Below the pieces are notes generated by a model. The model searched no databases. It saw only the letters and a program-made list of their open reading frames with translations, and was not told where the DNA came from. From a virus, in the IMG/VR virus record IMGVR_UViG_3300023049_000110, positions 1 to 35,107 of that record: DNA of 35,107 nt; one strand, written 5' to 3'. Shown here in pieces: positions 1,211-32,021 of this stretch. Made by a program: the position numbers and the translations under genes. Positions within the stretch are counted from its first letter, which is position 1; the number at the start of each line of letters is the position of its first letter.

Positions 1211-4200
1211 TCAAACGGTTTGTTCAATGAACGCTATCTCTGCATCGCTCAGTTTGAAATGATTATACAGTTCTTCGTCAGTCCAACTCCTATTTAGATC
1301 AACGAACGGTAGTTTTTTCATAATTCCAGTGCCATTCAATCCGGCTTCACCGCCTAACACTTTAAAGATAAAGTGAAAAAGTTTTGACTTGAATACTTCC
1401 GCTCCGGCTAACTCATCAGCATTGAGTGGCATAGAACATTTATAAGAATCTTTGCAATCCCCAGCATAGTCTACTCGTATACCACCAGTGGTAACAAATC
1501 TACCGGCTACTAGATACACTTTTTTAGCACCAACGTTCTTATCTTTTCCTTCTTTAAAGTCATATGAGTTAGCCCCGATGACCTTATCCAAAATAGAGAC
1601 GGATTCTTCACAAGCGTTTTTAAACGGAAATACTTTTATATCATTGAAATTGACAGTAAAAGATACATTGTTATATCCCACTATCTCCGTGGTATTTACC
1701 GGCTGCTTATTTAATACGTAGTAAGATATGGATGTTCCTACTCCCTTAAAATAACGTTCTGATAAGTTATCGTCAACGTTAATATAACTAGGGTTCATAC
1801 ATTTAAATTTTGACAAATAATATCTGTCAGTATCATAGTGTCCGATAGAACTCCACGCCTTCGGTGTTACAAAAGCTAACTGACCGTTGTCAGTTAATTT
1901 GTCATAGGCTACTTCAATAAAAGCTTTCCATAAATTTCCTTGATTTTCTGTTTTACTATTAGTTGTAGATTGGAATGGCGGATTGCCAATAACTACGTCA
2001 AATTTCATTTCTATATCATCCTTATTATATACTACTTTACATCCCATATTTTTTTTTAAGTGCTTTTCGAAGTAAGCTGTATGTTCCAAACACGTGATTT
2101 TTGCGTTTGGAAAACGGTTTTTTATGGCAGATACGAAAGAGCCAGAAAGAGCATTCACGACCAATATGTTTTTAATAGAAGATGATGCTTTTACTGCCTT
2201 TACTAACGCTGTGGCACAATCAATAGGTGTGTAAACATAACCAATATTGGATTTAAGTGTGGTGTTATAAAATACATCATCATGACATTCTTCAAGGGAT
2301 AGATGTGAACACGCTTTTTGTAGATCACTAAAATACGTTCGCATATCCAACACAGCAAGCGACGATCTAAACGCATTCATTAGGTCGTGCCCGAACATTT
2401 TATCATATACATCAAGATTGAACACGTCTTTATCATATAGGTTTTCGCTGTATGATATCCAACGTGTCTCTGTAAGTATGTTTGTGATTAAATCTTTAAC
2501 TTCCTGTTCTTTATTTATATCATTCGTTTTACAGTTAGATTTATTTCCTGTTTTTTTGCTACCACCGGTAGATACTTTAGCCCCATTGTGCTGTGTAAGA
2601 GATTGGCTAAGTTTAGTCATATACCCATGGGTATCTAGCTTATCCCATATATCTTTATTATTTTTATAAGACTCTGTGCCAAATGAACTGCCAAATGAAC
2701 TGTTGATAGATGCATTTAAAAAAAACTTACTTGCTTCTTTTTGTATCTCATCATAAGAAATTTCTCTAGGTTCGATTTTATATTCAGTCATAGAAATATT
2801 ATCATTGAGAACACGCTTTTCTAAATCAATATCTCCACGGCTTTGTTCACGAACAATACGCCCTATCATACCAACTAGCGTCAACCCAGAACACATAACA
2901 TATATCTTTGCATTTGTTTTCTTATTATATGTACGTATTATGCGTCCAATTAATTGTTCGAACAACGCTAAGCTGTTGATACGCGCAAACAATACGATGT
3001 GGCCAAGCATTGGAATATCAGTTCCCGTAAGATATTTCTCGCATGTTAGAATAATAACACGGTTATGCGTCTTGCGTAGCTCAGCAACATACTCTGATAC
3101 CGTTAGTGATCCACGGTTTTTATCAATAGTGTAACTATCTATGAAAAATATACCATCATTCTGAAATCTAAAATCATTGTTACATGTTGTTGCGAAAGCT
3201 GGTAAATATTTACTTGCGCTATCGCCATTAAAGCCCGCTGGACACACCCAAAGACCATGATTGCGGCTTGTCTCACATAACGCATTGTCCTGTATGATAC
3301 TAAACGGGTTCTTGTCCTTTCTCCTACCAGAGACATACATTTCATATGCTAAATCAATCAACTGTTTTGAATAAACAAATTCCTTCTCTTCGTTGCGAGC
3401 AAACAATTTACGCGGGTCGAATCCCTCTGCCGTATTATACAACGAAGCTGTTGCGGAATCCAGATTCAGGAATGGTGTTTCTAAAAACTCAATGCGGATT
3501 TTTGGAAGTCCCAATTTTTCGCGATTATCCAACGCCCAAGTCAAGTCGCGCCGAATGATTTGTTCTTCCGTGTATTGGTCGCAAACGTTATATGCGGTCG
3601 CAGTAATATCGAGTATATACTTGGCCTTTTCTTCTAACTCTTTTAGCCTTTTGTTTGTTTTTTTGGCACCATATTGAAGATGAAACTCGTCGCGAATCCA
3701 AAATGTAATGTTATTTTTTAAAACATCAAACTTCTTCCGAAGAAATATGTCGTCGTCGGCATTTTCTTGGAAGCGCACGTCCTGAACGGTAGCTAAAACG
3801 ATAATGATTTCACCAGATTTGATGCGCTTTTTAACTTGTTTGTGTGGCAACTTACAAAACTCTTTAGCATACATACATGTAATCTTTACCGAGCGATTAC
3901 TTCCAAGTGCATATTTTTCAATGACATTAAAAAATGATGTCATTGTGTCGGTTATGGGCGTAGTTACACAGATAAGGCCACCAGTTTGGTTTATATTTAG
4001 GCGCTCGACGGCAGTGGAAAGTGAAATAATAGTTTTTCCAAAACTAGGAAATCCAACAAGTAATACCTTGTTGGATTTATCAAAGGTCTTTAGAATCTGC
4101 GTATGTGTCTCTTCTTGACCAAATTTCAAGATGATATTTTCCTTTGTATCGTGGTCTTTATCTAAGTCTAGAAATTCTTTTAGAAACGTTATTAGTTGGG

Positions 4201-4603
4201 GTAAATCTCGTTTTGTATCAAAATCAAGTAACGCTTCGTTATTTTTACCGGCTACCGTATTATTCGGATAACATGCCGAAAAATCACATTTATACTCTTT
4301 CTTTTTTTTATGGATGTATTTGCGGAACCCATCATCTGTATATTTGTTAGCAGCGTCGATGCAAAATGCCGTCACGAACTCAAGGTCGTTAGTTTGACCA
4401 CGTCCCTGTAACTTTGCATAACTCTTCTTTATTGCCTCGTCGGCACTTTGCCCGTTACATACCTCTGCACCAACCTGCCCAAGTTTGGGTATGTTATTAA
4501 TATAAAACAGCATATGTTCATCGGTCATTTTTCCGTCTTTATCTAACGGTGTGGTTGCAAGATGATGAACTTGTAGATCATTGGTAATAATTCTAGTTGG
4601 CAT
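1211..4603 (-). CDS. SF2 helicase - N6-adenine methyltransferase fusion protein
   Basis: A 1130-residue protein. After about 165 unassigned residues comes an SF2 helicase core: Walker A GFPSFGKT (184-191), DEFH box (305-308), TAT motif III (335-337) and motif VI QLIGRIIR (550-557). A low-complexity linker (about 635-700) leads to a methyltransferase: GYVYTP (motif X, about 788-793), a degenerate motif I (NALSGSF, 817-823) and catalytic NPPF (874-877). The C-terminal WTDEELYNHF segment (1107-1116) is typical of Eco57I-like enzymes. No nuclease motif was found. Helicase-methyltransferase fusions occur in restriction systems and in phage antirestriction proteins such as P1 DarB. GAGGGGG precedes the start. 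The gene is AT-rich relative to the right-hand genes. Confidence 0.85.
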   Translation of the reverse strand: MPTRIITNDLQVHHLATTPLDKDGKMTDEHMLFYINNIPKLGQVGAEVCNGQSADEAIKKSYAKLQGRGQTNDLEFVTAFCIDAANKYTDDGFRKYIHKKKKEYKCDFSACYPNNTVAGKNNEALLDFDTKRDLPQLITFLKEFLDLDKDHDTKENIILKFGQEETHTQILKTFDKSNKVLLVGFPSFGKTIISLSTAVERLNINQTGGLICVTTPITDTMTSFFNVIEKYALGSNRSVKITCMYAKEFCKLPHKQVKKRIKSGEIIIVLATVQDVRFQENADDDIFLRKKFDVLKNNITFWIRDEFHLQYGAKKTNKRLKELEEKAKYILDITATAYNVCDQYTEEQIIRRDLTWALDNREKLGLPKIRIEFLETPFLNLDSATASLYNTAEGFDPRKLFARNEEKEFVYSKQLIDLAYEMYVSGRRKDKNPFSIIQDNALCETSRNHGLWVCPAGFNGDSASKYLPAFATTCNNDFRFQNDGIFFIDSYTIDKNRGSLTVSEYVAELRKTHNRVIILTCEKYLTGTDIPMLGHIVLFARINSLALFEQLIGRIIRTYNKKTNAKIYVMCSGLTLVGMIGRIVREQSRGDIDLEKRVLNDNISMTEYKIEPREISYDEIQKEASKFFLNASINSSFGSSFGTESYKNNKDIWDKLDTHGYMTKLSQSLTQHNGAKVSTGGSKKTGNKSNCKTNDINKEQEVKDLITNILTETRWISYSENLYDKDVFNLDVYDKMFGHDLMNAFRSSLAVLDMRTYFSDLQKACSHLSLEECHDDVFYNTTLKSNIGYVYTPIDCATALVKAVKASSSIKNILVVNALSGSFVSAIKNRFPNAKITCLEHTAYFEKHLKKNMGCKVVYNKDDIEMKFDVVIGNPPFQSTTNSKTENQGNLWKAFIEVAYDKLTDNGQLAFVTPKAWSSIGHYDTDRYYLSKFKCMNPSYINVDDNLSERYFKGVGTSISYYVLNKQPVNTTEIVGYNNVSFTVNFNDIKVFPFKNACEESVSILDKVIGANSYDFKEGKDKNVGAKKVYLVAGRFVTTGGIRVDYAGDCKDSYKCSMPLNADELAGAEVFKSKLFHFIFKVLGGEAGLNGTGIMKKLPFVDLNRSWTDEELYNHFKLSDAEIAFIEQTV

Positions 4604-4678
4604 GTAAATAATTCCCCCTCTGGTGATTAATATTTGATATTTACTATAGTTTATTATAACAAATACTTGAAATGTATT

Positions 4679-5494
4679 TCAATATAAAAGTGAGTTAAGT
4701 ATCAACGGGATTATGTTAAGTTCATAAAGCTCAATAAGTTCGTCTTTTGATATTGATGGATTTCCAGCAGTATTGTATTTTACTTCTTCGAAAGATATAT
4801 TATTGAAAATTTCAACAAGTTTGTTTTTATCAATATTCGCCTTTATGTAATAATGGGATGGTTTTTTCCATTTCGATAGGTTATCCACTTTTACTGCACC
4901 GGCGTTCGCCCCAACACGTTGTATAATGAAATCTGTATCTGCCAAATCATTAACAAAATCAAAGTCGGTATGTTGGGTTTTTATTAGATGCTTCTCACGC
5001 CGGTAATCTCTTTTTTCCCAAATCTGAAAACAGCACGGAACATCATATGGTTTTCCTTCAAATATAAAGGAATCCTTTGGCATTGGATTGTCGTGGATTA
5101 GATGAAACATCGGATCAAGTCTGTTTTGCACAGATTTCTTTCTGAATGTTTTAGGAACAACGAACCCGATATATTGTGCATATTCGCTATGGTTGAAGAA
5201 CTTGATAGCCAATGACGAGTTCTTCCCGAACGGCGGATTACCAATAACGATATATGTCATATCAGTGATTGGTGCAAAACTAAAATAGTCTTGAGCTATC
5301 ACATTCGGATACTTAGGGTCTAAATCCATACCAATACTCTTTGACGCATCCATCAAATTGAAGAATGATCCAGTTCCCGCAGACGGTTCAACCACCACAT
5401 CAATAGTATCAATATCAACAATATCATATATTGTGTTCATACATACTTGTGCTATAGTTGGATTGGTATAGTATTGATCTAAGTTATTGTTCAT
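4679..5494 (-). CDS. N6-adenine DNA methyltransferase (gamma-type motif order)
   Basis: A 271-residue stand-alone methyltransferase. Motif X (QYYTNPTIAQ, about 7-16) is followed by motif I EPSAGTGSF (36-44), acidic motif II (GMDLDP, 55-60) and catalytic NPPFG (86-90). The remaining 180 residues are a variable region, presumably for DNA recognition. Expected to transfer a methyl group from S-adenosylmethionine to adenine N6 in DNA; the site cannot be read from sequence. First full gene of the minus-strand island. The ATG at 5494 has no clear ribosome-binding site but lies 14 nt after the stop of a 16-codon ORF with a good one, so coupling is possible. Confidence 0.82.
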   Translation of the reverse strand: MNNNLDQYYTNPTIAQVCMNTIYDIVDIDTIDVVVEPSAGTGSFFNLMDASKSIGMDLDPKYPNVIAQDYFSFAPITDMTYIVIGNPPFGKNSSLAIKFFNHSEYAQYIGFVVPKTFRKKSVQNRLDPMFHLIHDNPMPKDSFIFEGKPYDVPCCFQIWEKRDYRREKHLIKTQHTDFDFVNDLADTDFIIQRVGANAGAVKVDNLSKWKKPSHYYIKANIDKNKLVEIFNNISFEEVKYNTAGNPSISKDELIELYELNIIPLILNSLLY

Positions 5495-11198: not shown

Positions 11199-11521
11199 TG
11201 ATTACGATTACTGAAAATGCACAGAAGCAGTTTGCTTCAATGATGGAAGCTAATGGCTTCGAAGCGTTTGTATTTGGTGCGTCCGGTGGTGGTTGTGCTG
11301 GTTTCAACTATCTCTTAGAAGAAACCAAGCTGGCCGATGCCAACGAAGGTGATGAAATACTTGACTTTGATGGTGTCAAAATCGTGCTTGATAAGTTTAG
11401 CGTGTTCGCTATTGCTGGCACCGAGATTGACTACAAAGTTGATGTCATGGGTTCGCGTTTCGAGTTTTCGAATCCTATCGCGACATCGGGTTGTGGTTGT
11501 GGAACGAGCTTTAGCGTTTAG
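11198..11521 (+). CDS. IscA/ErpA-type Fe-S cluster carrier (HesB family)
   Basis: A 107-residue A-type carrier. The three family cysteines are present: C33 in GGGCAGFNY, and C99 and C101 in SGCGCGTSF. A-type proteins accept Fe-S clusters from the scaffold and pass them to apo-enzymes in the cytoplasm. ATG at 11198 (MITITENAQKQF) was preferred over the one at 11183 because family members begin ITITExA, and it overlaps the upstream stop. It ends 4 nt inside the convergent protease gene, leaving no room for a terminator. It may maintain Fe-S enzymes during infection; this role is inferred. Confidence 0.93.
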   Translation: MITITENAQKQFASMMEANGFEAFVFGASGGGCAGFNYLLEETKLADANEGDEILDFDGVKIVLDKFSVFAIAGTEIDYKVDVMGSRFEFSNPIATSGCGCGTSFSV

Positions 11522-12546
11522 TCTCGCTTTAGCTCGTTCTGTTGCTCTTCGACTTCGGCAGCATCAAGCATTCCAAGCGTTAGAGTTATTTCAATAATAT
11601 CATTGCCTCTAAGGATTACAAGCTTCATATCTTCATATGGTGCCTTGTATTGGAGTGCATCAAACAAATCATCAATCGTTACAATCTTCCGACCATCAGC
11701 TTGAAGAATAACATCGTTTGGCTCAATGCCAGCTTTGTCGGCAGCACCGCCCCCTTCGATAGTTGTAATGCTCACACGGTATAGTTCTGGGTCATATTTT
11801 AGACCTGTTCCCATCTTTGGGCGGTCAATCCTTCCATCCGCAATCAATCTCTCAATCACAAACCGAGCCACATGGCTATCGACACTGAAACTCAAGCCAC
11901 TGTTATCACCGTCGCTTGACAGGATAAGTGTATTGATGGCCACCACAGAACCGTCCATGGTCATTAGCGGCCCACCACTGTTGCCCTTGTTGATCGCCAC
12001 GTCACTCTGGATAGCTGTCTGCCATCCGTTTGATAAGCGACGTTTCTTGTGGCTCACAACCCCCTTCGATACAGTATAGAACAATCCTCTTGGGTGCCCG
12101 ATAGCCCAGACTTGTTGGCCGGGGCGAAGATCATCACTGTTTCCCCATGCCAACTCAGGTTTCTTTGGCATGTCTTTTGCACGAAGCACAGCTATGTCAG
12201 ATAGCGGATCGACACCAATCACCTCTGCTACGTATCGTTCTGGTTCGTTCTCAAAGCTCACCATTATTCGCAAGCCATCCTGTACCACGTGGTTGTTGGT
12301 GATGATGTATTGATCATCTACGACAAAACCGGTGCCGATGGCACTGGGGTTTTGCTGGGGCAGTTTCTTTTTGAGGTATCGGTCCAATGGGGAGCCGGGT
12401 GTCATAGACGAAGTGCTTTCTCTCTCGGATTCAACCAAGACGATTGACGTTCTAACGGTGTCAATCGTATCCAAATATTCCTCGTTGGCGTGTGCCAATG
12501 CTTGGAACGGTAGCAACAGTATTGCCATTACAACTAATATACGCAT
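11518..12546 (-). CDS. Exported DegP/HtrA-like serine protease with one PDZ domain
   Basis: A 342-residue S1C protease. The start at 12546 gives a classic signal peptide (MRILVVMAILLLPFQALAHA), so the upstream in-frame ATG at 12618 is rejected. The catalytic triad is intact: H86 in ITNNHVV, D117 in PLSDIAVL and S190 in KGNSGGPL. A single PDZ domain spans about 255-335; HtrA proteins bind unfolded or C-terminal peptides there. It should act in the periplasm on misfolded or specific envelope proteins. A late-promoter motif lies exactly 5 nt before the ATG and no ribosome-binding site exists, predicting a leaderless late mRNA. It is one minus gene among plus genes. Confidence 0.93.
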   Translation of the reverse strand: MRILVVMAILLLPFQALAHANEEYLDTIDTVRTSIVLVESERESTSSMTPGSPLDRYLKKKLPQQNPSAIGTGFVVDDQYIITNNHVVQDGLRIMVSFENEPERYVAEVIGVDPLSDIAVLRAKDMPKKPELAWGNSDDLRPGQQVWAIGHPRGLFYTVSKGVVSHKKRRLSNGWQTAIQSDVAINKGNSGGPLMTMDGSVVAINTLILSSDGDNSGLSFSVDSHVARFVIERLIADGRIDRPKMGTGLKYDPELYRVSITTIEGGGAADKAGIEPNDVILQADGRKIVTIDDLFDALQYKAPYEDMKLVILRGNDIIEITLTLGMLDAAEVEEQQNELKRD

Positions 12547-12559
12547 ATAAATATTTAGC
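12546..12559. promoter_or_regulatory. Divergent late promoter element at the protease start
   Basis: On the minus strand GCTAAATA (12559-12552) is followed by 5 nt and the protease ATG. On the plus strand TATAAATA (12546-12553) overlaps it. The layout matches the palindrome at 28424-28441. Confidence 0.55.
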
Positions 12560-12593: not shown

Positions 12594-12601
12594 GATAAAT
12601 A
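12594..12601 (+). promoter_or_regulatory. T4-like late promoter motif
   Basis: GATAAATA followed by CTAGAAACAGGAG; the structural gene begins at 12621. Confidence 0.7.
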
Positions 12602-12620
12602 CTAGAAACAGGAGTCACAC

Positions 12621-13085
12621 ATGGCTAAACAAACTATTGGTATTGGTGCAGCAGCAAACGATGGATCAGGCGACGATCTTCGTGTTGCGTTCGATAAAGT
12701 AAACGACAACTTCTCAGAGCTTTATACTGAACTTGGCGGCACGGCATTGAGCAACCTTACCCTAAACGGCAACACAATCTCGACAGATAACTCAAACGGC
12801 GACATCAACCTCGACCCGAACGGAACAGGTGACACGGTAGTTATCAGCGGTAACATTCTACCAGCCAGTGACTCAACAATCCAGAACTTGGGTTCTTCGA
12901 CTGACAAATGGACAAACATTTATGCAGCACAAGGTCAGTTCGATAACATCGTTATCGGCGGACCTGTTCAAACTACAGTGGGTAGTGCGGGCGGTGCAAC
13001 AGCACTCCCTGCTACACCGACAGGGTATCTACAAGTAAAAATCGGAAACAACAACTACGTCATTCCTTACTACGCCGTTTCTTGA
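12621..13085 (+). CDS. Virion structural protein (fibre/baseplate-associated)
   Basis: A 154-residue protein. The N-terminal block QTIGIGAAANDGSGDDLRVA followed by FDKVNDNFSELY is a recurrent head of T4-like fibre and baseplate-associated proteins. It continues into low-complexity beta repeats (LTLNGNTISTDNSNGDINLD) like those of triple-beta-helix fibres. The C-terminal YLQVKIGNNNYVIPYYAVS looks like a small capping domain. Late promoter and ACAGGAG precede the ATG. Next to two other structural genes with their own late promoters. The exact virion position is not readable. Confidence 0.75.
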   Translation: MAKQTIGIGAAANDGSGDDLRVAFDKVNDNFSELYTELGGTALSNLTLNGNTISTDNSNGDINLDPNGTGDTVVISGNILPASDSTIQNLGSSTDKWTNIYAAQGQFDNIVIGGPVQTTVGSAGGATALPATPTGYLQVKIGNNNYVIPYYAVS

Positions 13086-20202: not shown

Positions 20203-20210
20203 CATAAATA
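20203..20210 (+). promoter_or_regulatory. T4-like late promoter motif 5 nt from a start codon
   Basis: CATAAATA is followed by TAAGT and ATG at 20216, so the late transcript should begin at the start codon. Confidence 0.6.
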
Positions 20211-20215
20211 TAAGT

Positions 20216-20458
20216 ATGTCACATCCATTAGCACCGAGACTAGACGAACTCACCGACGACGAAATCGTAGCCAAGCTTGGCGAACTATATGCTAAGTTCG
20301 GTTACGCTTCTCGTTATAACAAACACCTTGCCGACCAGATTTTCTTTCTCATTGATGACTACAACAATGAAATGATGCGTCGAAACGCAGAACAAGACAA
20401 GAAGATTCAAGAAGAGCTTGGCGAGGATTTCTTTGGGACAAACATAGACGTAAAATGA
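20216..20458 (+). CDS. Conserved hypothetical late protein
   Basis: An 80-residue protein: MSHPLAPRLDELTDDEIVAK, then KHLADQIFFLIDDYNNEMMR. Mainly two helices with an acidic tail. No known domain, though the compact helical-hairpin form is common among T4-like accessory and virion proteins. No ribosome-binding site; a late promoter lies 5 nt away, predicting leaderless translation. The stop overlaps the next ATG (ATGA), so translation of 20455 probably depends on it. Confidence 0.68.
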   Translation: MSHPLAPRLDELTDDEIVAKLGELYAKFGYASRYNKHLADQIFFLIDDYNNEMMRRNAEQDKKIQEELGEDFFGTNIDVK

Positions 20459-22270: not shown

Positions 22271-22971
22271 AACTTAGGGCGGCGACCGTTGTATTGGGTT
22301 TCGATGTTTTCAAACCCCTTGTCGAAATCTCTTAAACTGGCTTCAACCCAAGCTTGAAGACGTGACATATATTCTTTCAAAGTCTCCATCATACCTTCGC
22401 GAATAATGCTTTCACGAATGCTTTCTTTTTTCAGTTTAGGGGCAGCAATAGCACCAATCTTTCCGGCCTTTGTGCTTTTGTCAAGTTTGGTGTGCTTCTC
22501 GCGAAGTTTTTCAACTACTGGGATAAGGTCTTTATCAAGGAGCTTCATAAGGTCAACCATGAACTTTTCGGTTGCAAAGACTTCTTTTTCTGAGGTAGAT
22601 TCCTCAACATCTTTGCCCATTTGAATAGTAAGAGATACAGTTTCAATGGCACGAGTTAGAGCAGCATCTTCTGCGGCAAATAGCAAGTCAAAGATAGGAC
22701 GGATTTCGCCTTCTTTTACATCGTCACGGCGCTTGCCGAACTCTTTTGCGGCACGGTCGAGAATAAGATAACGCTTGGATAGTTTGGTTAGCTTCTCAGA
22801 AGTTGTGCCTTTTACCATTGCAGTAACTTTGGAGAACTCACGGTTCGCGGTTTTTATCTTGGATGAACCTTCTTCGCTGTATTCTACGTTAGGGTCTACT
22901 ACCCGTTCGTCACCAGCTTCTTCGATGTTATTGAAGCTTTCAAGTAGTGTTCTAAAATCGTTGGTTTTCAT
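22267..22971 (-). CDS. Hypothetical late protein, helical, possibly virion-associated
   Basis: A 234-residue, strongly helical, charged protein (MKTNDFRTLLESFNNIEEA, KLSKRYLILDRAAKEFGKR, MVDLMKLLDKDLIPVVEKL). Coiled coils are likely; there is no signal or membrane segment. The C-terminal region (LQAWVEASLRDFDKGFENIE) ends with a basic tail. ACAGGAG precedes ATG. Two copies of the late promoter lie upstream on the same strand, implying high late expression. Such helical late proteins are often scaffold, core or internal head proteins, but no family was recognised. Confidence 0.68.
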   Translation of the reverse strand: MKTNDFRTLLESFNNIEEAGDERVVDPNVEYSEEGSSKIKTANREFSKVTAMVKGTTSEKLTKLSKRYLILDRAAKEFGKRRDDVKEGEIRPIFDLLFAAEDAALTRAIETVSLTIQMGKDVEESTSEKEVFATEKFMVDLMKLLDKDLIPVVEKLREKHTKLDKSTKAGKIGAIAAPKLKKESIRESIIREGMMETLKEYMSRLQAWVEASLRDFDKGFENIETQYNGRRPKF

Positions 22972-22991
22972 CTGGTAAATCTCCTGTTGTT

Positions 22992-23023
22992 GTATTTATC
23001 ATTGACAGTATTTATCATTGACA
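22992..23023 (-). promoter_or_regulatory. Duplicated late promoter (16-bp tandem repeat)
   Basis: GTATTTATCATTGACA occurs twice in a row (22992-23007, 23008-23023). Read on the minus strand each copy holds a GATAAATA late motif (23000-22993 and 23016-23009) for the gene starting at 22971. Confidence 0.75.
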
Positions 23024-27901: not shown

Positions 27902-28426
27902 TTATGATTTTCGCCGCCATTCGCAATATAAACGTTTACCGTCTTGCTGAAAATCCACAACCTCATATCCAAATAGCGTAGCAAAATGTCGTAACAAATC
28001 TTCGGTCCATTCAAACACCTCTATGCCCTTGAAGTCGTCGTTGCCGTGGTCGTGCTGGCCGGGGTTACAACGCCAATAGATTCTGGCTGTGGTCCCACAT
28101 AAGGCTTCATCTACACATCTTATCTGGTTGTGAATATCGGCATAGGTGCCGAAGTTTATACTACCCAGACACAGGGCCACGTCAAAGTATCCTTTTGGTT
28201 TGAAGTCTTCAATAGCCACAACCTCGTCGGCACCAACGTCTGTGATGTCAATACCATACACATCAATCTTTCCTTTGAACGGATTAGTGCCACATCCCAC
28301 ATCTAAGACACGCTCGTGTGCCCCAATCTTGTCGAGCAGTATCCAGCCAGAATGTTCATATTGGTCTAATGTTCGGTCACGTTGTAACCACGTTGTTGAA
28401 AAATAATCTTTGAGTAATGTCCGCAT
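27902..28426 (-). CDS. Class I SAM-dependent methyltransferase
   Basis: A 174-residue Rossmann methyltransferase. Motif I VLDVGCGTNP (40-49), the acidic ribose-binding residue in VYGIDITDVG, and the motif IV region FDVALCLGSINFGTY are visible. There is no NPPY, so DNA adenine methylation is unlikely. The substrate is unknown; similar small enzymes in T4-like phages act on unidentified small molecules or glycans. The ATG at 28426 lies 5 nt after a late-promoter motif, inside an 18-bp palindrome shared with the divergent sulfotransferase-like gene, and has no ribosome-binding site. Confidence 0.85.
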   Translation of the reverse strand: MRTLLKDYFSTTWLQRDRTLDQYEHSGWILLDKIGAHERVLDVGCGTNPFKGKIDVYGIDITDVGADEVVAIEDFKPKGYFDVALCLGSINFGTYADIHNQIRCVDEALCGTTARIYWRCNPGQHDHGNDDFKGIEVFEWTEDLLRHFATLFGYEVVDFQQDGKRLYCEWRRKS

Positions 28427-28441
28427 ATAAATATTTATATG
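28424..28441. promoter_or_regulatory. Palindromic bidirectional late promoter containing both start codons
   Basis: CATATAAATATTTATATG is a perfect 18-bp palindrome. Each strand reads TATAAATA, 5 nt, ATG: minus for the methyltransferase (ATG 28426-28424) and plus for the sulfotransferase-like gene (ATG 28439-28441). Both mRNAs should start at the ATG. Confidence 0.8.
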
Positions 28442-28975
28442 ATTTTATTACCAGAAAAAATATTCTTTACCGGTGCACCGGGAAGCAAATGGAGCGGCAT
28501 CGCTCAAAAGTTTGAACAGAATCGTGCGTTTGACACAACAGACAGAACACCATATAGACAGTATTATCACAACGAGTTCTCTGGCCACATAGGTGCTTAT
28601 TTTGGCACCGGCATGGAGTTTCCGCCACTTGTTGATAAGTGGGTATTGAAGAAGCCATACTCTGGTGACGGTATTCCGTTGTTGAAATCACACGAATGGG
28701 TATACAAACTTCCCGAGATTCAAGCTGTTTTTCCAGATGCGTGGATTGTGTTTGTTCGTCGCGACACCGACCAGTGTTTTGATTGGTGGAAACAAGCTGG
28801 TGGTTGGGATATTACCTATCCCAACTACGATTGGTATGAGAGCGACGAGCTTATGTATGAACGTATCGGCGAACAGAACCAACTTATGATGGATTTTGCA
28901 GCATTACATAATCTAACATGGCAGCAGCAAGAGCCTAAGACAGACGATGTATGGATAACGGTATATAAGCCGTGA
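28439..28975 (+). CDS. Sulfotransferase-like P-loop protein
   Basis: A 178-residue protein. The N-terminal IFFTGAPGSKWSGIAQKF (8-25) is a P-loop-like phosphosulfate-binding segment. Later blocks are LLKSHEWVYKLPE and WIVFVRRDTDQCFDWWK. The FTGAPGSKWS start with KSH and a late RxD pattern matches a conserved T4-like phage family usually annotated as sulfotransferase-like. It could transfer a sulfate group or bind a nucleotide; substrate unknown. Leaderless geometry from the palindromic promoter. Its TGA overlaps the TctA start. Confidence 0.7.
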   Translation: MILLPEKIFFTGAPGSKWSGIAQKFEQNRAFDTTDRTPYRQYYHNEFSGHIGAYFGTGMEFPPLVDKWVLKKPYSGDGIPLLKSHEWVYKLPEIQAVFPDAWIVFVRRDTDQCFDWWKQAGGWDITYPNYDWYESDELMYERIGEQNQLMMDFAALHNLTWQQQEPKTDDVWITVYKP

Positions 28976-30396
28976 TGATAATAGCATCCCTGATAGCTGG
29001 CATTCTTTATGGTTTTGCCGTGGGTATTGTTCCAGCAGCCGGGGCAACAACAGGATTGGTCGCATTATATGCGGTGATGCCTTTCTTTTTGACCGACCCA
29101 TATGCTGGCGTAGTATTCCTTATGGCGGTGGTAGCCGCATCAACAACAGCCGACAGTTTCACCAGCATCCTTTTAGGTATCCCCGGTGCCAATAGTTCAG
29201 CAGCCACAATGGTTGACGGATTCCCCTTGGCACAACAAGGACGGGCAAGCTATGCCATTTCAACAGCCGTAACTACATCAACAGTAAATGGGTTGTTCTG
29301 GGGTGCCATCGTATTTCTATTGCTTCCCATATATAGCCAAGTCATCCTATTCTTCGGTATCCCAGAACTCTGGGCATTCACGGTGTTAGCATTGGCAACA
29401 GTTGGGTTCCTATCAACCGACAAACCACTCTTTAGTATCATTGCGATTGGTGCTGGCGTCTTCCTTGGATTGGTAGGTGTTGACCCGTCTACTAACGACC
29501 CCCGTTTCACAATGGGATGGTTTTACCTCCAAGATGGTATCCAGTTGATACCAGTGGTGGCGGGATTGTTTGCGGTGCCCGAGTTGCTTGAAGGATTCAA
29601 GAAACGCCGTGCTACAACGACAGTGGCAAAACGTGAAACAGTAGCGGGAATGAAGGCAGTATGGGATAACAAATGGCTATCAATGCGAGGCGGTTTCATC
29701 GGTGCCCTTGTGGGCCTGTTACCGGGCCTTGGTGGTGCAGTGAGTGATTGGCTGTCATATTCACAAGCGGTAGCAAGCAATCCCGACGAAGAGTTCGGAA
29801 ACGGTAACATCAAAGGTGTAATCGGTCCCGAAGGTTCTAACAATGCACAAAAGGCAACCAGTATGATTCCAACAGTATTGTTCGGTATTCCCGGTGCACC
29901 ATTCGCAGCCGTTCTTATGGGATTGTTTGCGTATCTTGGTATTGAACTTGGTTCACCCGACCTGATGTATGACACCCAGTTTTTTGAAAGCTTGAGCCTT
30001 GGATTCATAGCAGCCACAGCAATCGTTGGGGTGTTATCCTTGGTATTCGTCAATACGGTGTGCAAAATCACAAGCATCCCATACGTGTATTACTTCCCCT
30101 TCTTACTCGTAATGATTGTATGGGCGAGTATGCAATACACAGGTGGTTGGGAAGACTTTGCGGTGTTGGCATTCTTTAGTTTTTTAGGGGTGGTCATGAA
30201 GCATTATAAATACTCCCGACCAGCGTTGTTGGTTGCGTTTATTCTAGCAAGCAAAGTAGAAGCCCTATCAATACAACTAACAACCCTATACGATTTCACT
30301 ACCCTAATAGACCGACCACTGTTCTTGATTCTAATGGTTCTAATCATTGCGGTGTTTGCGTTCAGTTTCAAAAAAGGAAAGATAAAATATGCGTAA
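28972..30396 (+). CDS. tctA: TctA-family large membrane subunit of a tripartite tricarboxylate transporter
   Basis: A 474-residue, highly hydrophobic protein with about 11-12 membrane helices. TctA signatures in both halves: ILLGIPGANSSAATMVDGFP then LAQQGRASYA (about 63-95), and GLLPGLGGAVSDWLSYSQA then GPEGSNNAQKA and VLFGIPGAPFAAVLMG. The large subunit forms the sodium- or proton-coupled channel for a periplasmic binding protein. The start is GTG 28972 or ATG 28975, both overlapping the previous stop. Coupled to the TctC gene by an 8-nt overlap. No TctB (small four-helix subunit) gene is present. A rare phage transport gene; intact. Confidence 0.93.
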   Translation: MMIIASLIAGILYGFAVGIVPAAGATTGLVALYAVMPFFLTDPYAGVVFLMAVVAASTTADSFTSILLGIPGANSSAATMVDGFPLAQQGRASYAISTAVTTSTVNGLFWGAIVFLLLPIYSQVILFFGIPELWAFTVLALATVGFLSTDKPLFSIIAIGAGVFLGLVGVDPSTNDPRFTMGWFYLQDGIQLIPVVAGLFAVPELLEGFKKRRATTTVAKRETVAGMKAVWDNKWLSMRGGFIGALVGLLPGLGGAVSDWLSYSQAVASNPDEEFGNGNIKGVIGPEGSNNAQKATSMIPTVLFGIPGAPFAAVLMGLFAYLGIELGSPDLMYDTQFFESLSLGFIAATAIVGVLSLVFVNTVCKITSIPYVYYFPFLLVMIVWASMQYTGGWEDFAVLAFFSFLGVVMKHYKYSRPALLVAFILASKVEALSIQLTTLYDFTTLIDRPLFLILMVLIIAVFAFSFKKGKIKYA

Positions 30397-31459
30397 CTTT
30401 TTAGTAGCCTTATTCTTGGTGTTGGCTACACCAGCCCTAGCAGACTTCACAATGGTTGTTCCACAAAAGCCCGGTGGCGGCACAAGTGTATGGACACAGA
30501 TTGTAGCACGTGAGCTTGAGAAGAAGCTTGGAGAGAATATTGTTATTCGGCATATCACAGGTGCCCGAGACATTCCCGGTTTCAATGAGTTCCACAACAA
30601 CCTACAGCACGACGATAAGACGATTATGGTATCACACGGCGGTAATGCAATCGCATTCTTACAAGAGAAAGTTGAATATGATTTCCGTGACTATGACAGC
30701 ATCGGTCTGATGAACTTGAACATTTATACGGCTATTGGAAACAGTGGTCTAATGGGCGGTGGTATCAGGTTCGCGGCTGGTTCTGGTATGGTTCCAGAAG
30801 CATTGGCTATGGCGGTATATTTTTGCGAAGATAAAGCAGTCAACTCACAAGACCCGCTGGTATATGCTGATTACGTAAAGTGCTTTGAAGAGAACGTGCT
30901 TTGGGTAAAAGGTATGAGTGGTGGCGAACGTCGCCTTGCTTTTCGTCGTGGTGAGCTAAACGCAACACGTGAGAATCCAGCAGCATTCAAGAAACATGTG
31001 ATGCCTATGATTATGAACAAGAAGGCAGTGTTCTGGTTTGACCACGGTATTTTGGATACGGAAACTGGCAAACATATCAACGACCCAAACACGTCCGAAA
31101 CCTACAGCTATGTGGATGGTTATTTCCATCCCGCTAACGAGGCAAGTGACTTCTATGCTGCATACAAACTAGCAAAGAGTTTCCGCGATGGTCTACAAAA
31201 GGCATTGTGGGTTCGTAAAGGTAATCCAAATACCGAGCGGCTTCGTGCTGCCCTTCGGGAAATGGCAAACGACCCTGAATCGGTAAAGGCTATTCAAGCG
31301 GCTGTAGGCAACTATGAGTGGAAGATTGGCAACGAAGGGAACCGTCACCGTGACGTTATTATGAGCCTTGTGACCGAGAATGCCCTAAAAACACTCGTAA
31401 AGTTCAATAGCGAAGTGCTTGGATTGAGCAGTGTTTATAAGAAAGAACTTGTGGAATAA
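30389..31459 (+). CDS. tctC: TctC-family periplasmic substrate-binding protein
   Basis: A 356-residue protein with a clear signal peptide (MRNFLVALFLVLATPALA, 1-18). The mature start TMVVPQKPGGGTSVWTQIVA followed by RELEKKLGENIVI corresponds to the TctC/Bug N-terminal signature (PxxPGGxxDxxAR then LxxxLGQxVVV). It should bind a carboxylate in the periplasm and deliver it to TctA. AAGGAAAG precedes ATG, and the gene overlaps tctA by 8 nt. It is longer than typical Bug proteins (about 320), with insertions around 150-230, so the substrate may differ. A late promoter follows immediately. Confidence 0.88.
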   Translation: MRNFLVALFLVLATPALADFTMVVPQKPGGGTSVWTQIVARELEKKLGENIVIRHITGARDIPGFNEFHNNLQHDDKTIMVSHGGNAIAFLQEKVEYDFRDYDSIGLMNLNIYTAIGNSGLMGGGIRFAAGSGMVPEALAMAVYFCEDKAVNSQDPLVYADYVKCFEENVLWVKGMSGGERRLAFRRGELNATRENPAAFKKHVMPMIMNKKAVFWFDHGILDTETGKHINDPNTSETYSYVDGYFHPANEASDFYAAYKLAKSFRDGLQKALWVRKGNPNTERLRAALREMANDPESVKAIQAAVGNYEWKIGNEGNRHRDVIMSLVTENALKTLVKFNSEVLGLSSVYKKELVE

Positions 31460-31467
31460 GATAAATA
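31460..31467 (+). promoter_or_regulatory. T4-like late promoter motif 5 nt from a start codon
   Basis: GATAAATA followed by CATAC and the ATG at 31473, the same geometry as at 28426, 28439, 20216 and 12546. Confidence 0.65.
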
Positions 31468-31472
31468 CATAC

Positions 31473-32021
31473 ATGGAACTCAAGAACGTAATAGACAACA
31501 CCAAAGACATCTATATGACAGACAGCATGTTGAGCGTGCTATTAGACTTCGAACGCGTGCTAGACGAAGTTGATTTGTATGCTTTCAAGAACTGGATAAA
31601 AGGCGAGCTTGCCAAGGGTCCAGACGATGAAAAATACTGGGTCACATGTCAGTTTATGTATCCCTACAATCTAATGCCAGACCCACAAGGCGGTCGCAGA
31701 CTATTGGATTATAACTGCAAGATTCATTATCAAGAATCGGAAGTGACCGTGCCTGTAAAGGTCGAAAGCCCAGAAGACTTTCAATCCGGAACGAAGCTTC
31801 CAAAGAAGAAGAAAAACAAAGTTTGGCTGGTTACTATCCGTATGCCAAAAGATTTGATTTCAGATTATCGCCAAGGGTTTGTCGAGATTGAAGGCCAGAA
31901 CATCAATCTAGAAGATGTTGATGAAGCATGGGACGACGATCTAGACGAAGAAGGTGCCGTAGAGGGTGGCGTTATGGACGCCGCTGAAGAAGACCTTGGA
32001 TTGGACGAACTAGAAATATGA
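31473..32021 (+). CDS. Conserved T4-like late protein, function unknown
   Basis: A 182-residue protein. ATG at 31473 (MELKNVIDNTKDIYMTDSML) was chosen because a late promoter ends 5 nt upstream; an in-frame upstream ATG at 31431 lies inside tctC. SVLLDFERVLDEVDLYAFKN then WIKGELAKGP, and a beta region (KYWVTCQFMYPYNLMPDPQG then RRLLDYNCKIHY) precede a long acidic tail (DEAWDDDLDEEGAV). Resembles an unnamed family of T4-like marine phages. A virion or baseplate-assembly role is plausible from late control and the following genes. Its stop overlaps the next ATG. Confidence 0.7.
   Translation: MELKNVIDNTKDIYMTDSMLSVLLDFERVLDEVDLYAFKNWIKGELAKGPDDEKYWVTCQFMYPYNLMPDPQGGRRLLDYNCKIHYQESEVTVPVKVESPEDFQSGTKLPKKKKNKVWLVTIRMPKDLISDYRQGFVEIEGQNINLEDVDEAWDDDLDEEGAVEGGVMDAAEEDLGLDELEI

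Follow-up and report, generated by a model that had tools for sequence, protein, structure and literature searches.

A palindrome that probably serves as a two-way leaderless late promoter between divergent genes of a T4-superfamily phage

Introduction

The late promoters of phage T4 are built around an octamer that spans positions -13 to -6, A at -13 being given as one variant of the first position, and in phage Aeh1 the consensus carries a C at -12 (PMC2988020). In E. coli and Salmonella, bidirectional promoters with symmetric -10 elements have been described by the Grainger laboratory (PMC12825309, PMC10268837), and a promoter is defined as bidirectional when its start sites lie 7-25 bp apart (PMC10268837). 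Leaderless mRNAs are known in E. coli, going by work cited in PMC5312081, and are common in mycobacteria (PMC4633059). Prediction of late promoters by the methods used for cyanophages is reported to have been unsuccessful in pelagimyophages (PMC7029224). Our own search of the literature, which covered work outside the subscription journals, found no report of leaderless late transcription in T4-related phages and nothing useful on the transcription start sites of syn9 or PA5oct.

Here we analyse a short palindrome in a 35,107-base stretch of viral DNA (the window). This stretch is a fragment, recorded in IMG/VR, of a T4-superfamily virus: it carries a gp44 clamp loader and PhoH, and the closest gp44 among named phages is that of the PA5oct-like jumbo phages (44%). 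From the arrangement of the palindrome, its recurrence and the spacing of similar boxes in other genomes, we consider it highly probable that it is a gp55-type late promoter of a T4-superfamily phage which fires in both directions, yields leaderless transcripts and stands in the most compact phase, with starts 13 bp apart.

Results

Two late boxes and two start codons in 18 bases

The sequence CATATAAATATTTATATG at 28424-28441 reads identically on both strands over all 18 bp, and each strand contains TATAAATA-TTTAT-ATG. The ends of the palindrome are the first codons of the two flanking ORFs, one on the minus strand (27902-28426, start codon at 28424-28426) and one on the plus strand (28439-28975, start codon at 28439-28441). 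The late box of the plus gene occupies 28426-28433, the T4 position of -13 to -6 (PMC2988020), and that of the minus gene occupies 28432-28439, so that the two overlap by 2 bp; both match the T4-type late box (TATAAATA/NATAAATA) exactly. No other match to the 18-mer exists in the window with up to three mismatches allowed, and such a match turns up in 3 of 100 shuffles; the box TATAAATA itself occurs eight times in the window against 2.0 expected. The earlier note had described a perfect palindrome with late-promoter-like boxes on both strands around a common core, and in this it is supported.

What that note missed is the consequence of the spacing. A T4 box at -13 to -6 followed by a 5-nt spacer places +1 on the A of the ATG, and the two mRNAs are therefore predicted to be leaderless, with starts at 28439 (plus) and 28426 (minus), each preceded by a pyrimidine at -1. 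We find no SD-like sequence upstream of either ORF, as had been claimed, and here this absence is what predicted leaderless mRNAs would look like. The boxes overlap on opposite strands with predicted starts 13 bp apart, which falls within the 7-25 bp of a bidirectional promoter. The symmetry needs no signal of its own: superposing two box-N5-ATG promoters 13 bp apart produces it automatically.

In the proposed mechanism, a gp55-type late sigma with the host RNA polymerase would recognise N[A/C/T]TAAATA as a -10 element in either orientation, and transcription would begin at the A of either AUG. Both mRNAs would then be leaderless, and 70S ribosomes would initiate on them without an SD. The leftward mRNA would encode the methyltransferase, and the rightward one the sulfotransferase-TctA operon. 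No phase tighter than 13 bp between starts would be possible with this box sequence, and in it the first base of each box (-13) would pair with the opposite +1, the A of the other start codon. The positions of the RNA 5' ends, late timing, leaderless translation and exclusivity per binding event are what we infer from this layout.

Homologues of gp55 are found in most of the long contigs tested, namely HTVC008M and the seven IMG/VR contigs that we surveyed (G006, G025, G030, G013, G031, G033 and G039), and most of the longest contigs carry gp23 and gp20. No gp55 is detected in the window, an incomplete 35-kb fragment, and one is present in its relative G006. The Pfam and PHROG models for gp45 are silent everywhere, controls included. 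In G006 (L280, L281; 200-230 kb), gp55 (a 618-aa ORF) and gp20 (a 984-aa ORF) each match their families in two pieces around an insert, suggesting that these inserts may be inteins.

The gene identities proposed earlier hold up to differing degrees. The plus protein (178 aa) matches Pfam Sulfotransfer_3 with E 3.5e-5, just below the curated cut-off, while the minus protein (174 aa) gives a weak match to Methyltransf_23 (E 0.0025, below the curated cut-off) and has an N-terminus that is conserved among relatives. Among 50,697 phage records we find no relative of the methyltransferase and one of the sulfotransferase (41%); in IMG/VR the methyltransferase search returns only the same virus and one near relative. 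Elsewhere in the window, a minus-strand gene at 1211-5494 encodes a 1130-aa protein in which a helicase is joined to an Eco57I-type methylase domain, and adjoins another methyltransferase-like gene. The sulfotransferase-like gene overlaps a tctA gene that begins at 28972 (Pfam TctA, E 8.7e-95), and a second ORF follows at 30389. A rightward transcript (28439-31459) would thus carry the sulfotransferase, a TctA-family tricarboxylate transporter subunit (28972-30396) and ORF 30389-31459, which by eye resembles a periplasmic solute-binding subunit and has no Pfam match. Such a set would be an unusual cargo operon for a phage.

The module recurs between unrelated divergent genes

The 18-mer is present in 52 IMG/VR stretches, which collapse by protein pair, with the window included, to 35 distinct viral sites. 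Long divergent ORFs start on both ATGs at 18 of these 35, and BLASTP clustering sorts the gene pairs into 13 unrelated types, whose members include an HNH endonuclease paired with an unknown, a fatty-acid desaturase, several 2OG-Fe(II) oxygenases, radical SAM and RuvC-like proteins, methyltransferases and others. The same 18-mer occurs at 42 sites in 84,980 cellular genomes and at none of them lies between two ORFs (Fisher P 2.8e-8 against the viral sites). A control palindrome of identical dinucleotide content (CATAAATATATATTTATG) has seven distinct viral sites, again with none between two ORFs.

The box sequence also permits a 4-bp overlap, and a second geometry, CAT-N5-TATTTATAAATA-N5-ATG, is therefore expected of two back-to-back units; the 2-bp and 4-bp overlaps correspond to start-site distances of 13 and 23 bp. 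This 23-bp geometry has 77 distinct IMG/VR sites, of which 58 have both ORFs and 74 at least one, in 16 pair types, so that in exact matches it outnumbers the 13-bp palindrome. When both spacers are widened to 6 nt, nine distinct sites remain, two of them with both ORFs and apparently from one gene pair. Over both geometries, clustering gives 29 unrelated pair types. The earlier note had supposed that the palindrome may be a recurring module, and looking for it between divergent genes elsewhere bears this out.

Does the common core act as a switch, forcing mutually exclusive firing so that the two genes are regulated against each other? Simultaneous binding by two polymerases is sterically impossible at bidirectional promoters of this kind, whereas the basal activity of those in E. 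coli is too low for competition (PMC12825309); late phage DNA is, moreover, multicopy, and the paired genes are diverse and bear no sign of antagonism. On the palindrome itself two polymerases at once are likely sterically excluded, yet exclusivity per binding event does not amount to a regulatory switch. We regard a switch as unlikely, and the earlier statement that the shared core would force mutually exclusive firing is unsupported as it was put.

The box lies 5 nt before many start codons

In the window, HTVC008M, T4, syn9 and the seven IMG/VR contigs (about 2.1 Mb in total, with G025, G030 and G013 covered partway in this survey; G025 as 400 kb of a 516-kb contig) we recorded how far NATAAATA stands from the following ATG that begins an ORF of 60 aa or more, with mechanical ORF calls. 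The seven contigs were picked for containing the module, its core or its gene pair, and HTVC008M was picked otherwise; this choice biases presence, not the spacing of the contigs' other boxes.

We find that the late box lies 5 nt (sometimes 4) before many starts in eight T4-superfamily genomes, namely the seven contigs and HTVC008M, and in the window. Counting boxes at 4-5, 6-15 and 16-35 nt, in that order, gives 33, 1 and 17 in G025; 12, 2 and 39 in G030; 13, 3 and 28 in G006; 6, 0 and 6 in G013; 8, 7 and 16 in G039; 9, 3 and 5 in HTVC008M; and 4, 0 and 6 in the window. The corresponding counts are 24, 17 and 2 in G031, 14, 21 and 5 in G033, 0, 4 and 26 in T4, and 0, 2 and 14 in syn9. Boxes at exactly 5 nt make up 29 of the 34 at spacings of 0-15 in the 400-kb stretch of G025, 9 of 12 in HTVC008M and 11 of 14 in G030, and in binomial tests the P values for the 5-nt peak range from 6e-5 to 2e-30. 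A peak of this kind is missing from four control octamers, and the 5-nt class is absent from T4 and from syn9, the only cyanophage covered in full.

Two spacing classes, near (4-5 nt) and far (about 16-35 nt), are seen in most of the less AT-rich genomes, and the majority of far boxes come with an SD-like motif (28 of 39 in G030, 22 of 28 in G006, 9 of 17 in G025). In the most AT-rich genomes, G031 and G033, spacings of 6-10 are also occupied and the profile is noisier. The G006 peak is divided between spacings 4 and 5; cases at 4 would require a start one base closer to the box.

Which sequences work at this spacing can be read from the pooled genomes without T4 and syn9, where the expectation is taken from other spacings. 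Spacing 5 holds 104 consensus boxes where 2.9 are expected, 26 copies of NCTAAATA where 0.8 are expected and 25 of NTTAAATA where 2.0 are expected; other one-base variants are close to background. Because enrichment is limited to these three forms, we take the active motif to be N[A/C/T]TAAATA-N5-ATG. Single leaderless late promoters are thus predicted to be common in these T4-superfamily phages.

The deposited annotation of HTVC008M provides a comparison in which the starts were chosen by others: its GenBank starts are those of box-ATG at the tape measure, gp2, gp4, baseplate, CsgF and dioxygenase genes, and this agreement makes the starts independent of our mechanical ORF choice. Its gp2 and gp4 genes are divergent, with boxes that abut directly (TATTTATA|TCTAAATA) and 27 bp between starts. 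In the 236-kb genome G039 (L355-L366), the core of the 13-bp phase, ATAAATATTTAT, occurs seven times, mostly one-sided or beside leadered genes. In G025 (L318-L337), many predicted leaderless late genes encode proteins whose N-termini resemble T4 capsid-targeting sequences (MRYxEIL-E, MKFREIISE), while YHGT-type stretches reminiscent of ADP-ribosyltransferases are present in several; these proteins might perhaps be packaged and ejected with the DNA.

Three further genes of the window fall under the same rule. A DegP-like protease gene on the minus strand (11518-12546) has a predicted one-sided leaderless promoter, GCTAAATA-TTTAT-ATG, at 12544-12559. Its start is the ATG at 12546, which opens a signal peptide (MRILVVMAILLLPFQALA), and not the GTG at 12618; the motif takes in this start, and the orthologue in the 230-kb relative G006 has GATAAATA-TAAT-ATG upstream. 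The earlier note had seen a partial copy of the palindrome here, and the copy is real, though it is one-sided only. An 80-aa ORF on the plus strand has a putative promoter CATAAATA-TAAGT-ATG at 20203-20218, with CATAAATA-CAGT-ATG at its G006 orthologue. Lastly, GATAAATA-CATAC-ATG at 31460-31475 (plus) would put the start of a virion-protein-like ORF at 31473. The GTG start at 31431 (ORF to 32021) is probably wrong; the match to a PHROG virion protein sets in two residues past 31473. In contrast, two boxes of the window belong to the second class: within 12594-12623 (plus) GATAAATA lies 19 nt before its ATG with an SD (AGGAG), and within 22969-23000 (minus) GATAAATA lies 21 nt before its ATG, also with an SD.

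These data bear on whether the box is a promoter at all. The conserved quantity is its spacing to the ATG, and SD-less, A/U-rich starts occur in other bacteria, so the box could be an A/U-rich, SD-less signal for translation initiation, with transcription starting upstream inside the opposite gene. Against this, the same octamer stands about 16-35 nt before SD-led genes in most genomes, and most of the less AT-rich genomes have few boxes at 6-15 nt, as expected of a DNA element with a transcript start 6 nt on. The octamer is also identical to the late box known from T4, down to the C at -12 of the Aeh1 type. Furthermore, a pyrimidine precedes the ATG in 70 of 77 box-N5 cases, compared with 748 of the 1598 genes that lack a box (P 1.3e-15). 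Bacterial initiation usually has a pyrimidine at -1 and a purine at +1. The pyrimidine at -1 fits an initiation site, and would be unexpected for an A/U-rich ribosome site. The two-class spacing and this pyrimidine lead us to disfavour a translation signal, which we judge decidedly unlikely.

The half-unit, and not the dyad, appears to be what is kept

In four relatives both proteins are 53-90% identical, and 37-57% of the codons at identical residues have changed. The 18-mer is unchanged in three of them. In the fourth (L072) a single change breaks the symmetry, converts the minus box to TCTAAATA, an enriched variant, and keeps the plus box. Sulfotransferase homologues of about 50% identity with other neighbours (L077-L080, L085, L087) retain GATAAATA-N5-ATG; several other distant homologues, apparently within operons, are without it. 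The comparison suggests that the half-unit box-N5-ATG can travel with its gene and that the dyad is not the conserved quantity.

A perfect dyad between divergent genes is the classic layout of an operator, on which a dimeric repressor or activator would control both genes. However, the symmetry is not conserved (L072 is one base off it, with the plus box retained), dozens of unrelated genes have the box acting one-sided with an identical spacing, the spacers are asymmetric in the 23-bp geometry, and the paired genes are unrelated. We reject an operator as very improbable. Least credible of all, and extremely unlikely, is a chance palindrome with the promoters of both genes elsewhere: A/T-rich 18-mers do arise randomly in A/T-rich DNA and about half of the distinct viral sites are not between two long ORFs, but neither the excess over cellular sites (18/35 against 0/42) nor the persistence of the 18-mer in relatives despite heavily changed codons fits chance.

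Discussion

We return to the bidirectional leaderless late promoter as the preferred reading. If it is true, widespread T4-related phages start many late genes on leaderless mRNAs, among them the tape measure, gp2, gp4 and baseplate genes of the cultured pelagiphage HTVC008M, and the 5-nt spacing could explain why cyanophage-style promoter prediction reportedly failed in pelagimyophages (PMC7029224). Many predicted gene starts would be corrected, and N[A/C/T]TAAATA-N5-ATG would serve as a 16-base rule for metagenomic phage genomes. The palindrome itself would be an extreme overlap of genetic signals, with two promoters and two start codons in 18 bases.

A broader proposal, which we put forward as speculation and think rather unlikely, is that large T4-superfamily phages (marine and of other hosts) have a distinct leaderless late regulon. 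The palindromes would then be interchangeable junctions that join any box-N5-ATG genes back to back without loss of promoter or start codon, and the side on which the sliding clamp approaches would bias the direction of firing. Clamp polarity is proposed, speculatively, as the determinant of direction, since a primer-template junction that activates T4 late transcription has to lie downstream of the promoter (PMC2988020).

How does the locus compare with the systems already described? With the T4 late promoter, which depends on gp55, gp33 and gp45 and has TATAAATA at -13 to -6 (PMC2988020), it shares the octamer and the lack of a -35 element, and the longer related contigs likewise encode gp55 homologues; the -12C variant has its counterpart in the Aeh1 consensus. 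The degenerate first base is also that of the NATAAATA late promoter of S-PM2 and other cyanophages (PMC2984593), although cyanophage syn9 is without the 5-nt class. The boxes of T4 and syn9 lie at least 10 nt, and mostly 17-35 nt, from the ATG; here the distance is 5 nt and the mRNA is predicted to be leaderless. Other leaderless mRNAs likewise have a 5' AUG and no SD, as predicted here, but in these phages they would be coupled to the box of a phage late sigma and would serve core virion and cargo genes.

T4 itself has a single TATTTATAAATA core between its divergent baseplate genes 26 and 51 (AF158101, 116450-116461), with the overlap of the 23-bp geometry. In that case there are leaders on both sides, an SD-like sequence (AAAGGAG) on the gene 51 side, and start codons outside the promoter. 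Given this leadered example, bidirectional late promoters are not new in kind. The leaderless two-way form is a variant of them, and bidirectional -10 elements are already well described in bacteria. The promoters of E. coli and Salmonella likewise use one symmetric -10 element that the polymerase reads in either orientation, and the 23-bp start distance is also found among them. They work with sigma70 and most often with 18 bp between starts, a distance that, judging from the box sequence, two overlapping T4-type boxes cannot give; here the distances are 13 or 23 bp and the sigma would be that of the phage. A further difference from these bacterial promoters is that the 13-bp form makes each start codon part of the opposite box.
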